From Leptolyngbyaceae cyanobacterium M33_DOE_097 (GTDB lineage Bacteria; Cyanobacteriota; Cyanobacteriia; Leptolyngbyales; Leptolyngbyaceae), in NCBI GenBank assembly GCA_015296075.1, contig DVDV01000363.1:1-45404 (forward strand): 45,404 bases of DNA. Direction: 5' to 3'. Positions 17,076-34,219 of this stretch are shown piece by piece (within the stretch, counting starts at the first letter, position 1; each line of letters begins with the position of its first letter). Made by a program: the position numbers and the translations under genes. The notes beneath the pieces were generated by a model, which saw only the letters and a program-made list of their open reading frames with translations, ran no database searches and was not told where the DNA came from.

Positions 17076-17942
17076 TTACGCTAAACAGCCAGGACTGATG
17101 ACTAAAACTTCTTCCATCGGATTCCGCAGATCTTCGGTTGAACCTACATGGTAGTAATGATGGTAGATAGTTTGTGGATAGTTTGAAAAATGTTGGATCA
17201 GATGTTCATTCTCACGATACTTATTTTTCTTCCACATTGAGTAGGCAAAGCCACAGGGCAGTTCTTTAACCGCTGCTGCTAGCTCATCTGCATCCGTCGA
17301 ATCCCAGCGACCAAAGTAGTCGGTATGCCTGCCGATATAAGGGGGGTCGAGATAGACAAAATCATCGGCACGCGCTGAGGCAAGAGTGTCTCGCCAATCT
17401 TGCACAAGAAAATGCCAGTCTTTACCCTGCAAGACTTCTGCAACCCAATTAACCTGGTTACAAATTTTGGTGATGTAAGCTGGACGAAAGCGATCGCTCT
17501 TTTTACAGAAAGGCACGTTAAACTTTCCTTTAGCGTTAAATCGAATCACGCCATTAAATGAGGCACGATTTAGAAAAATAAAATCAAAGGGATTACCAGC
17601 CAGATTAAACCGCTCTCGCACTTCGTAGTAGTAGTCTGCTCCGCATGTCTCCAACTTCTTTCCTTCGACTTCCAGATACGTCCTCAAAGAGTTCGGCGAA
17701 ATAATCCCCGACTGGATCGAGCGATAAACTTCGACCACGTATTTGTTTGTATCTGCAATTAATGCTTTATCCGGTTGAATGTTGAAAAGAACCGCTCCAG
17801 AACCCAAAAATGGTTCAATCCAACGGCCTTCACCATTCCACTAAATGCTCGCTAAAATCAGCGGCACCAGTTTTGTCTTGATGCCTTGAGATTTGATCGG
17901 AGGAACTTTTGGCTTTTGACCAGAACGTGGCAAAGGGAACAT
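17076..17942 (-). pseudogene. DNA adenine methylase (Dam/D12 class) interrupted by an in-frame amber codon
   Basis: The open part (17076-17807) encodes a D12-class N6-adenine methyltransferase: catalytic motif YLDPPYIGR, GNPFDFIFLNRASFNG and the C-terminal VGSTEDLRNPMEEVLVI. Its only start is a TTG that cuts motif I in half. Reading upstream in the same frame gives WNGEGRWIEPFLGSGAVLFN, completing the AdoMet-binding E-P-F-x-G-S-G motif. A TAG codon at 17841-17843 follows, then 33 more codons back to an ATG at 17942 (MFPLPRSGQKPKVPPIK, then GIKTKLVPLILASI). All are in one frame, so a single nonsense change (CAG, GAG or AAG to TAG) splits a gene of about 288 codons. No restriction enzyme is adjacent, so it was probably an orphan or solitary methylase. 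Unless TAG is read through, the truncated protein lacks a complete motif I. Confidence 0.85.
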
Positions 17943-29201: not shown

Positions 29202-29948
29202 CTAGATGAAGACGAGGGGTTTATCTTTTAGCGGTGCGAAAGCTTCGGAGTCAAAACGGTAAAGGGTTGCAGGTCGTCCGGCGCCACGGGTTACTTTGAG
29301 ACCAGTATCTGCCAAAAAACCAAGCTTTAACAGGCGTGATCGAAAGTTGGAATAATCTGAAAAGTTGTCGCCCAGCACCGTGGCATAAAACTGATAGAGG
29401 TCATTTAGCGTAAACAGCTCTGGCAAAACATCAAAGGCAACGGGGCTGTACTCTAATTTATTACGCAGGCGGCGGTGTCCATATTCCAAAATTTGGTTGT
29501 GATCAAAGGCAAGTTGGGGCACCTGACTGACGGGATACCAGGCAATGCCACTGACGCGATCGGCAATCAACTCGGCTTCGGCGTAACGCACCAGGGCAAA
29601 ATAGCTAACCGATAGATAACGCACTCCATAGCTGTCTACGTTTTCGCGAGGGTCACGGTTTGGCCCACCAAACGTATAGAGCTGCTCTAAATAAAGGTTT
29701 CGGACTCGAATTTTTTCGGCCAAAATCCGATAGGCAGCCGCTTCGAGAGATTCACCCTGGCGCACGAGCGTACCTGGAAAGCTCCAAGAACCAAGAAAGG
29801 GTTCTTCTTGCCGCATTACGAGCAAAACTAAAAGGCGATTTTGAGCCGTATCGACGGAGAAAATCACATTATCGACCCCAACCTTGAAGTTCTCTAAAGG
29901 ATCGGTGTTTGCTGAACGGGTAGATTTTCTCTGCGATCGTCCTGCCAT
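29202..29948 (-). CDS. nrtR: NrtR-type Nudix-domain regulator of NAD metabolism
   Basis: A 248-residue repressor-type protein. The N-terminal Nudix-like domain (VGVDNVIFSVDT, LLVLLVMRQEEPFLGSWSFPG) has a degenerate Nudix box: GESLEAAAYRILAEKI lacks the catalytic REXXEE glutamates. It is therefore likely to sense ADP-ribose or a related ligand rather than hydrolyse it. The C-terminal winged helix follows (FTLNDLYQFYATVLG, NFRSRLLKLGFLADTG, GRPATLYRF). NrtR proteins are known to repress NAD biosynthesis genes. Its start lies inside the 3-prime end of nadD (overlap 55 bases), so the two are coupled. Confidence 0.85.
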   Translation of the reverse strand: MAGRSQRKSTRSANTDPLENFKVGVDNVIFSVDTAQNRLLVLLVMRQEEPFLGSWSFPGTLVRQGESLEAAAYRILAEKIRVRNLYLEQLYTFGGPNRDPRENVDSYGVRYLSVSYFALVRYAEAELIADRVSGIAWYPVSQVPQLAFDHNQILEYGHRRLRNKLEYSPVAFDVLPELFTLNDLYQFYATVLGDNFSDYSNFRSRLLKLGFLADTGLKVTRGAGRPATLYRFDSEAFAPLKDKPLVFI

Positions 29949-30508
29949 GCGTAGAGGTGTTCTCGATGAATGTAATCGGCAACAGGTGGAGTAAGAGCGT
30001 CGAGGTTATGGTGGTTGCGGTAGTCCGTCGAAGATATTTCGGGCGCAATCAGGTCAGCGATCGCCACTCGTGTTCCTCTCTGTTCTACTTCTGCCAAAGC
30101 GGCCTCGCTCAAATGGTATCCCGGACGGGGCACAACGAGCAGGTCAACCTGTCGGAGTAGATCATCGATTCGATACCACTTTGCCAGTTGAGGCAGTAGA
30201 TCTGCACCAATGACCAGCGTGAATCGTGCGTCATGCCAAATTGTTTTGGCCGCTTCCAGCGTATGTAAAGCGCGAGGATGACTGAGTTGAGGATAAATCC
30301 GCAGGTTCGAGCGCGGCGGACGAATCGCATCTATCAGCAGTTGTAGCATCGCGATGCGGTGTTGGAGCGGTGTTTGGTGAGACTTAAATGGATTGTCAGA
30401 TGCCCACACGGCAGCGACATCAAAGTGGTCAGCCAACCAGGCCAAAATTGCCTGGTGCCCCGCAGTAGGAGGATCTGCACTCGTTCCAAAAAGAGCAACC
30501 GTAAGCAT
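29894..30508 (-). CDS. nadD: Nicotinate-nucleotide adenylyltransferase
   Basis: Makes deamido-NAD from nicotinate mononucleotide and ATP. The nucleotidyltransferase signature reads LFGTSADPPTAGHQAIL; the first His of HxGH is Thr, as in some family members. Further motifs are DNPFKSHQTPLQHRIAML, FTLVIGADLLPQLAKWY, LLVVPRPGY and the ISSTDYR triphosphate-binding motif. About 204 residues. The ATG at 30508 is preferred to the TTG at 30514. The C-terminus overlaps nrtR by 55 bases, giving tight coupling of enzyme and regulator. Confidence 0.9.
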   Translation of the reverse strand: MLTVALFGTSADPPTAGHQAILAWLADHFDVAAVWASDNPFKSHQTPLQHRIAMLQLLIDAIRPPRSNLRIYPQLSHPRALHTLEAAKTIWHDARFTLVIGADLLPQLAKWYRIDDLLRQVDLLVVPRPGYHLSEAALAEVEQRGTRVAIADLIAPEISSTDYRNHHNLDALTPPVADYIHREHLYAWQDDRRENLPVQQTPIL

Positions 30509-30644
30509 AGACAATGGCTAGAAAGAACAAAGGGAACTCGAATCTGTTGAGTAGAGAATGCGCCGCGCAGGTAAGCAAAAGCAGCGAGAACGAACAAACA
30601 GTTTTACCTATAGTAATGACTCTCGACGCGGCATCACCTCAGCG

Positions 30645-32021
30645 TTAAGCATGGTGGGTCTGTTTTGTTAATGTTTGCAGAGAATCTGAGATTTCAACCA
30701 GCACGGCATCTGGTTGTTGAATCTGACGCACCTCAGCCGGAAGACTGGCAACTGACTGCTGCGTGCGGTGGGCAATCGTTTCGAGCGGTTCTAATGGCGT
30801 CAGCCGTTGCCCCTCACGCATCACACATTGAAGCAGGGGTTCGCCGTGTGGAACAGGGTCATCGGCCAAGCTCAGGAGATCGCGCACAAACTGTCCATTC
30901 TCAACCTGACGCACAATCTGTTTGCGCCCTGGATAGGTGACTTTGCCCGGTGCCTCTTTCATCACAGGGATGCCATCAATCTCAACCAACTTGTAAACGC
31001 CGTTAACAGGTGCCCCTGTAACCACTTGCGTACCTAGGCCATACCCGTCAATGCAGGCACCCTGAGCCTTTAACTCTGCAATGCGAAATTCGTCTAAGTC
31101 ACCACTGGCAAAGATAGCGACCTCCGGTAAGAGTGCGCGAACTTTTTGCGATAGATCGGCTAAATCGCCTGAGTCAAGCCGCACTCCGGCTAGCTCTAGC
31201 TCACCGGCCTGCATCTTGGTTGCCAGGGCTTGAGCCGCGGCGATCGTGTCATAGGTGTCAATTAGCAAGGGTGCACCGGGAAAATAGCGATGAAAGGCTG
31301 TAAATGCTTGCATTTCGCTGCCTTCTAAAGCTGACAGCGCCATCACAAGCGCGTGAGCCATCGTACCCGCTGGTTTGTGGCCTAGTTGAAGTGCCGCTAA
31401 TACGTTTGAAGTGGCGTTGAATCCAGCCGCGAGCGTAGCTCTAGCCGCCCAGATTGCCGCCTGCGGCCCGAAGGCGCGGCGAGTACCAAACTCGAGTAAT
31501 GTGGCTTGACTGCCTGCCACATCTCGAATCCGCGCTGCTCGTGTTGCCAGCAATGTCTGATAGTTCACGATGTTGAGCAAGCAGGTTTCGACAATTTGCG
31601 CTTGCCAGAGCGGAGCCTCAATTCTGAGCAGAGGCTCGTTGGCAAAGACAACCGTACCTTCGGGCACAGCCCAGACATCGCCGGTGAACCGAGCATGGGT
31701 CAATAGTTGCCAAAATTCATCGGTAGCTCCAGCAAAAATGTTGGTCGCCTGCAAAGCCGCAACCTGCTCAGCCGTAAAACAAAGCCGCTCCAGGTAAGCT
31801 AAAGCCTGCTCTAAACCCATTGCAACCAAGTAACCAAACTGATTGGGTAAGCGACGAACAAACAACTCAAAACTGGCTCGGCGATCGCCCACGCCTTCCC
31901 CCACATAACAGGCCGTCATCGTGAGCTGATACAAATCAGTCAAGAGACTGTATTGCTCCGGGTAAAGCGCCAGAAGAGACGGATCGAAACCAGCCGCCAG
32001 AGAATGGGATTGCTCGTCCAT
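30645..32021 (-). CDS. pncB: Nicotinate phosphoribosyltransferase
   Basis: First step of NAD salvage: nicotinate plus PRPP gives nicotinate mononucleotide. The 458-residue sequence matches the family throughout: YSLLTDLYQLTMTACYVGEG, SFELFVRRLPNQFGYLVAMG, LLEFGTRRAFGPQAAIWAAR, GTMAHALVMALS, LLIDTYDT, GVRLDSGDLADLSQKVR, FASGDLDEFRIAEL, DGYGLGTQVVTG and KVTYPGRKQI. It heads the pncB-nadD-nrtR operon. A TATAAT-like box (32055-32060 on the minus strand) lies 34 bases before the ATG. Confidence 0.93.
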   Translation of the reverse strand: MDEQSHSLAAGFDPSLLALYPEQYSLLTDLYQLTMTACYVGEGVGDRRASFELFVRRLPNQFGYLVAMGLEQALAYLERLCFTAEQVAALQATNIFAGATDEFWQLLTHARFTGDVWAVPEGTVVFANEPLLRIEAPLWQAQIVETCLLNIVNYQTLLATRAARIRDVAGSQATLLEFGTRRAFGPQAAIWAARATLAAGFNATSNVLAALQLGHKPAGTMAHALVMALSALEGSEMQAFTAFHRYFPGAPLLIDTYDTIAAAQALATKMQAGELELAGVRLDSGDLADLSQKVRALLPEVAIFASGDLDEFRIAELKAQGACIDGYGLGTQVVTGAPVNGVYKLVEIDGIPVMKEAPGKVTYPGRKQIVRQVENGQFVRDLLSLADDPVPHGEPLLQCVMREGQRLTPLEPLETIAHRTQQSVASLPAEVRQIQQPDAVLVEISDSLQTLTKQTHHA

Positions 32022-32290
32022 AAGTTTAATGAGTGGCAGAACATCAGCTATCCGATTATAGTAACTTTAACCAAAAATAGCGACAGTGATCGGGTTTGCT
32101 GGCTAAGAGAGATTTAAATCAGCGCGATCGCGCTCCTGAGACAGCGACTTATCTGCAATATCCTGGTAAACCAAGCAATCGTCTCAAAACCAGAACAAGC
32201 GCATTAATTTTGGTAAAATCAACCAGAAAGCACTGTCAAGCGCATCCTCTCAAGCCAAAGACTCATTCAGCCTGCTAAATCAACAGAGAG

Positions 32291-34210
32291 CTAACTGACC
32301 GTAATGCCCCGCCGCTCTTGCTGTTCGCGAATGCGATCGAGATTCCCAATCGGGATCGCTGAAATCAGCTTGCGGGTGTAGTCTTGCGTGGGTGCCTGGT
32401 AAAGCGACTCGGCCGGTGCAACTTCCTCAACTTGTCCCTTATTCATCACAATGATGCGATCGCTCATAAACTTGACCACACTCAAGTCATGAGAAATGAA
32501 GATATAGGTCAGGTTAAACTCATTCTGTAGTTCTTTTAGCAAATTCAACACCTGCGCCTGCACCGAAACATCCAGCGCAGATACCGACTCATCGCAAATG
32601 ATGAATTGCGGGTTGAGCGCCAACGCCCGCGCAATACAAATCCTTTGCCGCTGACCGCCCGAAAACTGGTGGGGGTAGCGATTTATCGCACTGGCATCCA
32701 GACCTACCCGTTCGAGCAGGTAAATCGCTCGCTGCCGCTGTTCGTTACGGTTGGCTGGCTTATCGTGGATCTGCATCGGCTCCATCACAGCCGCACCCAC
32801 TTTCATGCGGCTATCGAGCGCACTGTAAGGGTTTTGAAAAATAATTTGCATCTCACGCCGTAGTCGGCGGAGTTGTCCGGGTGAAAGATGGGTCACATCT
32901 TGCCCGTTAAACCAAACATGACCACTCGTTGGCGGAATCAATTGCAGAATGGCGCGGGCCAAGGTTGACTTGCCACATCCCGACTCGCCCACCAGTCCCA
33001 ACGTCTCACCGGGATAAACCTCAAAGCTGACGCCATTGACCGCCATCACATAACGGCTGACCTGACCAAACGTATTTTTGACTGGAAATGCGACCCGCAG
33101 GTCTTCGACCTTGAGCAACGGCTGCTTTTGGTGCAGTGTAGTCAGACGCTGCTCCATGTCGCTTGCACTCACCTCTTGCGCCATCGTCAAGGCTTCGTCA
33201 ACACCGATTTGCCGCTCTTGAATTTGAGAGGTGCCATCGGCTAATTGGTTGACTTCCATGAAATCTGAGACAGTTGGCAGGCGACGCAAACGGCGATCGA
33301 GGCGTGGACGGCAGGTTAATAGACCTTTGGTGTAAGGATGCTGAGGATCTGAAAAAATCTGCCAGACAGAACCGGACTCAACAATATCGCCCTGGTACAT
33401 CACCGCCACCTGATCCGCAATTTCAGCGATGATACCCAGGTCATGCGTGATGAACATGATCGACATGCCGCGCTGATCGCGCAGATCCCGCAACAGATCC
33501 AAAATGGTCGCCTGCACTGTCACATCTAAAGCGGTTGTGGGTTCGTCCGCAATCAGCAATACGGGATCGCAGGAAATCGCCATTGCAATCATCACCCGTT
33601 GCATCTGACCGCCCGACAATTGGTGCGGGTAGCGCTTTAGAAACTGATATTTTTGTCGATTAATTTCGCGGTCTAGCTCGCGATCGCCCGGTATCGCTGC
33701 ATTGGGGTTCGCATATTGCAACTCGGTGACATAGCGCCGCTTCATTTCCTCATCGTTGGGCAAGACGCGCACTTCTTGCAACAGGGCGATCGCCTCTCGT
33801 TCAGCATCCGCTTTGTTCAGTCGCTTGTGGAGCTGAATTGCTTCTGTAATTTGAAACCCAATCGTATAGACCGGGTTTAAGGAACTCATTGGTTCCTGAA
33901 AGATCATCGAAATTTCGCCCCCGCGAAAGCTTTCGAGCCGCTTAGGAGGTAGCGTCAACAGATCAATCGGTTCCGGCTGGTCAGCTCGCCCCCGAAACAA
34001 AACTTTGCCTCTGGTGATGCGCCCCGGTGGGGGAACTAACCCCATCACTGCCAGCGAAGTCACCGACTTCCCAGACCCCGATTCACCGACAATTCCCAAC
34101 GTTTGCCCCGGCAAAATCTCAAAAGAGATTCCCTTAACCGCACGGGTCAACGCAAAATCGGTTTTGAACTCAACTTCTAAATCCTGGACTTGAAGAACTG
34201 GTTCGGTCAT
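32291..34210 (-). CDS. Duplicated ABC transporter ATPase for oligo/dipeptides (DppD-DppF fusion type)
   Basis: About 640 residues with two complete ABC cassettes. Cassette 1 has Walker A GESGSGKSVTS, signature LSGGQMQRVMIAMAI and Walker B LLIADEPTTALDVTVQA. Cassette 2 has GESGCGKSTLARAI, FSGGQRQRICIARAL and FIICDESVSALDVSVQA. Both end in the oligopeptide-type C-terminus (PYTKGLLTCRPRL; DYTRKLISAIP). Such fused subunits (like GsiA or YejF) energise uptake of peptides or related compounds. No permease or binding-protein gene is adjacent; in cyanobacteria these are commonly scattered. Start: the ATG three codons after the TTG. Confidence 0.9.
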   Translation of the reverse strand: MTEPVLQVQDLEVEFKTDFALTRAVKGISFEILPGQTLGIVGESGSGKSVTSLAVMGLVPPPGRITRGKVLFRGRADQPEPIDLLTLPPKRLESFRGGEISMIFQEPMSSLNPVYTIGFQITEAIQLHKRLNKADAEREAIALLQEVRVLPNDEEMKRRYVTELQYANPNAAIPGDRELDREINRQKYQFLKRYPHQLSGGQMQRVMIAMAISCDPVLLIADEPTTALDVTVQATILDLLRDLRDQRGMSIMFITHDLGIIAEIADQVAVMYQGDIVESGSVWQIFSDPQHPYTKGLLTCRPRLDRRLRRLPTVSDFMEVNQLADGTSQIQERQIGVDEALTMAQEVSASDMEQRLTTLHQKQPLLKVEDLRVAFPVKNTFGQVSRYVMAVNGVSFEVYPGETLGLVGESGCGKSTLARAILQLIPPTSGHVWFNGQDVTHLSPGQLRRLRREMQIIFQNPYSALDSRMKVGAAVMEPMQIHDKPANRNEQRQRAIYLLERVGLDASAINRYPHQFSGGQRQRICIARALALNPQFIICDESVSALDVSVQAQVLNLLKELQNEFNLTYIFISHDLSVVKFMSDRIIVMNKGQVEEVAPAESLYQAPTQDYTRKLISAIPIGNLDRIREQQERRGITVS

Positions 34211-34219
34211 GGAAGTCAA

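Follow-up and report, generated by a model that had tools for sequence, protein, structure and literature searches.

The window analyzed here is the 45,404-nucleotide stretch (positions 1 to 45,404) of contig DVDV01000363.1 from Leptolyngbyaceae cyanobacterium M33_DOE_097. On its minus strand, from 17942 to 17076, it carries one reading frame of 288 codons ahead of the final stop, and translation of this frame places an in-frame TAG at codon 34. The features of the locus are as follows:

17076..17942, minus strand: interrupted gene for an EcoRV-type (Dam-family, D12) DNA adenine methyltransferase (PF02086, TIGR00571 and kinship to EcoRV systems)
17841..17843, minus strand: in-frame TAG, codon 34 (translation and alignment of relatives)
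17844..17942, minus strand: the 33 codons 5' of the TAG, with the conserved block PPIKSQGIKTKLVP (28-sequence alignment; 28 of the 33 residues are identical to those of the nearest relative, Kovacikia minuta, G006)
17076..17807, minus strand: mechanically called, TTG-started ORF of 243 amino acids, without the N-terminal block and half of motif I (ORF list)

The preliminary description of this DNA had proposed that the TAG at 17841-17843 breaks one continuous methylase frame, and this is borne out by the translation and by an alignment of 28 sequences, composed of the window copy and 27 relatives (21 from the same order, five from plasmids and one from a viral collection). All 27 relatives are open from an N-terminal PPxKxQGxK block, which we take to be motif X, through DPPY, and the window copy retains both blocks. 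Because all 27 relatives share the N-terminal block in an open frame, the part ahead of the TAG must be regarded as real coding sequence, and a true start after the TAG was rejected on the same ground. The TAG falls between this block and motif I, the lesion is a codon substitution, and the frame is otherwise intact to its end. In the relatives the same column holds Gln (eight), Lys (three), His (three), Asp, Arg and Val (two each), six other residues once each and one gap, so the place is a tolerant one. The first in-frame ATG, GTG or TTG 3' of the TAG is found inside motif I, and the mechanically called ORF opens with TTG at 17807, its first residues falling in the middle of EPFLGSG. This ORF matches the truncated, TTG-started gene lacking half of motif I that automatic annotation had been expected to report. 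Among the D12-family matches listed for 42 genomes of the order, only the window copy has an inner stop. Provided that the assembly is right, the gene has the mark of a pseudogene, a disabling lesion in a frame that is open in its relatives.

The part after the TAG scored 137.7 bits with the Dam-family model TIGR00571 (cut-off 114.85) and 96.1 bits with the D12 model PF02086 (cut-off 22), the latter rising to 124.2 bits when the match was read across the stop, with one TAG inside. Within the family, the gene shows identities of 46-59% to five plasmid methylases and shares their N-terminal block: 58.6% to the enzyme from Acinetobacter, 56.5% to Geobacillus, 49.8% to Latilactobacillus, 49.2% to Rhodothermus and 45.8% to E. 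coli pLG13 (NC_005019). In each of these five plasmids a restriction nuclease is annotated close to the methylase, that of pLG13 as the type-2 restriction enzyme EcoRV, and all five records match the EcoRV nuclease model PF09233. The other D12 methylase of the window genome (on contig C154) has FLKWAGGK at the position of the block. The single best record is on plasmid pA of Kovacikia minuta CCNUW1, about 77% (76.5%) identical. EcoRV is reported to cleave GATATC (PMC4081073), which, together with the kinship to EcoRV methylases, suggests GATATC as the target of the EcoRV-type adenine-N6 methyltransferase that the window gene encodes. In Microcystis panniformis, also a cyanobacterium, SMRT sequencing has reportedly detected N6-methyladenine at GATATC (PMC4730716). 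The hexamer occurs 982 times in the window genome versus 542 times for the reversed pattern; it is not depleted, a count that is uninformative on methylation.

An EcoRV-type methylase (E <= 1e-20) is present in 22 of the 42 genomes of the order, all from one family, the window genome included. None of the 42, again including the window genome, has a match to PF09233, the one model used for the nuclease, which a more diverged nuclease would escape; the methylase of the window thus stands apart from an EcoRV restriction-modification system with its cognate nuclease. A selection of neighboring genes scanned in the window contained no nuclease either. Around the three closest relatives, the first two ORFs on either side make 12 in all; 10 of these were scanned for a nuclease, and each of the 10 matched some other Pfam family. 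The window genome holds no second copy of the EcoRV-type methylase at E <= 1e-20; its two remaining D12 matches, considered as candidates, are the different methylase on C154 and a match of 46 positions on C182. A scan of the collection of genome contigs returned one distant match only. The viral collection likewise gave one match, to an EcoRV-type methylase that is 57% identical and is carried by a contig of 74 kb (L137, 5001-5711).

The rest of the phylum presents a different picture. PF09233 was matched in 14 of the 386 genomes of a phylum sample. In this sample the methylase (E <= 1e-40) was matched in exactly these 14 and in the window genome; in all 14, the methylase and the nuclease match share a contig and are no more than 500 bases apart. 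The nuclease match spans 672-732 bases in eight of them and 93-189 bases in the other six, all of which belong to genus g63, where the best stretch is this short in six of the seven matched genomes. In these six (G152, G287, G289, G305, G362 and G407), a fragment of an EcoRV-family nuclease stands beside an open methylase. The contrast between 22 of 42 genomes with a methylase and none with a nuclease in the order and 14 of 14 others in the phylum sample with a nuclease or a fragment of one raises the question of whether orphan GATATC methylation has a role in these cyanobacteria. In the available text of papers including PMC8262939 and PMC5173035, no EcoRV-type orphan methylase in this group is mentioned, a weak negative, as subscription journals mostly lie outside the coverage of the search.

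A codon model was fitted to nine of the 28 sequences over 293 sites; the TAG was masked, and branch lengths were near saturation. Omega was 0.093 on the window branch and 0.072 elsewhere, with twice the log-likelihood difference at 0.57, and three control branches gave 0.058-0.117. By a fall of about two log units, omega of the window branch lies at about 0.05-0.18, and an omega of 1 was about 10 units worse. The gene was therefore under strong constraint over most of this branch, and a simple mixture argument puts the neutral share of the branch at about 12% or less, which means that the inactivation, if real, was recent. Of 73 otherwise invariant positions, the window copy departs at three, a larger number than in 26 of the 27 relatives; this may point faintly to relaxed constraint and tells against a loss that is purely recent.

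We suggest that the locus probably records ordinary decay: an orphan EcoRV-type methylase recently inactivated by a nonsense codon, a loss that would be tolerated because no nuclease partner was found. The nonsense codon would end translation between the N-terminal block and motif I; since the stop separates the two, the gene should yield no active enzyme, and this methylase would leave GATATC sites unmethylated. Because the genome gave no match to an EcoRV-family nuclease, the cell should survive loss of the methylase, and the lesion could persist, the TAG being a recent step in the decay. This is in agreement with the earlier suggestion of a decaying orphan methylase, which gains from the lack of a PF09233 match, from the single copy and from a lesion that leaves a start without the N-terminal block. 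What is added to that first reading is the type of the methylase (EcoRV, with GATATC as its predicted target) and the test for a nuclease partner.

The main competing explanation is that the TAG is an assembly or sequencing error, so that the organism would have a sense codon at this place and an intact orphan methylase. The lesion is single and the rest of the methylase frame is intact and constrained, as would be seen with a base-calling error, and the genome assembly consists of 437 contigs (6.96 Mb). However, a control with ABC_tran gave 98 matches in the window genome, none with an inner stop (150 of 212 candidates scored), which indicates that the assembly is not generally poor, although the stronger constraint on ABC_tran than on an orphan methylase leaves room for one wrong base. 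In the gene of the nearest relative, only 133 of 2664 possible single changes produce a stop, so most random errors would look different, and the departures at three of the 73 invariant positions also speak, if faintly, against an intact gene. The sequencing error raised in the preliminary description thus loses ground through the ABC_tran control while keeping the otherwise intact frame in its favor; we consider it unlikely, and the stop is probably carried by the living organism.

It could also be proposed that translation resumes after the TAG, giving a product active alone or together with the 33-residue peptide, as the part after the TAG retains DPPY and most of the invariant positions. 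However, a restart at the first available start codon would begin inside motif I, and in 27 of 27 relatives the N-terminal block is in one frame with the rest, which makes a split gene very improbable. The intact downstream frame is the sole point for amber suppression or read-through to a full-length enzyme, for which there is hardly any probability: TAG ends 19 of the 39 long ORFs picked in the window and is thus an ordinary stop there, and no CUA anticodon was present among the tRNAs read by ARAGORN, an incomplete set for which 150 out of 334 candidates had been scored and in which no tRNA-Phe or tRNA-Ile appears. As a separate observation, an 11.7-kb contig of the same genome (C282; L138, 1055-2404) carries nine tRNA genes in a row, for Glu, Lys, Thr, Thr, Gly, Gly, Val, Arg and Ala; several of the anticodons duplicate ones present elsewhere in the genome, and none is CUA. 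Methylases are phase-variable in some bacteria, and this is all that speaks for a reversible switch, which had been raised earlier as a phase-like inactivation. Between 16900 and 18200 there is no tandem repeat, no direct or inverted repeat of at least 14 bases, and so neither a repeat tract nor an invertible segment; moreover, the lesion is a codon substitution, and we regard such a switch as extremely unlikely. Promoter-like sites (two versus a mean of 2.5) and terminator-like sites (two versus 1.0) were both near the shuffled level.

In a tree of the 28 sequences, the copies of the order fall into three groups. The first contains the window copy, Kovacikia, G026 and G012 (support 100), with the plasmid gene of Acinetobacter attached to it (84); within this group, the window copy and Kovacikia form a pair (96). 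The second contains fifteen other copies of the order (98). The third contains the genus mate G001, G014 and G015 (98), to which pLG13 and Rhodothermus attach (81). The copies of the window group occupy different genomic places. The methylase of G001, the only genome from the same genus, belongs to another clade, is 48% identical and lies elsewhere in its genome, and the DNA flanking the window gene has its matches in G001 on three further contigs, so that no empty site emerged. A comparison of the G001 methylase locus (L050, 9442-14999) with 29897-34219 of the window showed that this methylase immediately adjoins the gene corresponding to 32291-34219 of the window; the window methylase is about 15 kb from that gene and of a different clade.

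Neighborhoods were compared for 18 of the 21 relatives from the order (all but G062, G063 and G064). A HisIE-like gene, its identity tested with Pfam at two of these loci, adjoins the methylase in 11 of the 18, nine in the large group and two (G014 and G015) in the third. Loci of this arrangement include L056 (5087-6659), L055 (9584-11123), L054, L058 and L061; in G014 and G015 the methylase of the other clade lies at the HisIE-like gene in the opposite relative orientation. The common spot of the large and third groups fits a favored site or a replacement in place, and it makes it less safe simply to count three independent uptakes. Only tentatively can the three clades be read as EcoRV-type methylases having entered this family more than once, each time being kept without a nuclease. 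If true, such repeated nuclease-free retention would suggest that GATATC methylation is itself useful there, and the window strain would be a natural loss-of-function mutant in which this use could be measured.

Compared with known systems, the recent nonsense inactivation proposed here would be one more restriction-modification relic running down, in which the methylase is broken and the nuclease is not found. The M.EcoRV-type methylase of pLG13 is 45.8% identical to the part after the TAG and has the same N-terminal block, but it belongs to a complete restriction-modification system with nuclease and regulator and has no stop. The orphan methylase on Kovacikia minuta pA is the nearest relative, and its genome likewise has no PF09233 match, whereas its frame is intact and it occupies another genomic place. 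According to PMC6471742, some orphan methylases adjoin degraded nuclease genes and others come by mobile elements. The methylases of genus g63 resemble the window case in that the methylase outlives the nuclease; they differ in having no stop in the matched part. Together, these cases form a series leading from the complete pair, through a methylase beside a nuclease fragment, to the orphan methylase and finally to the broken orphan of the window.
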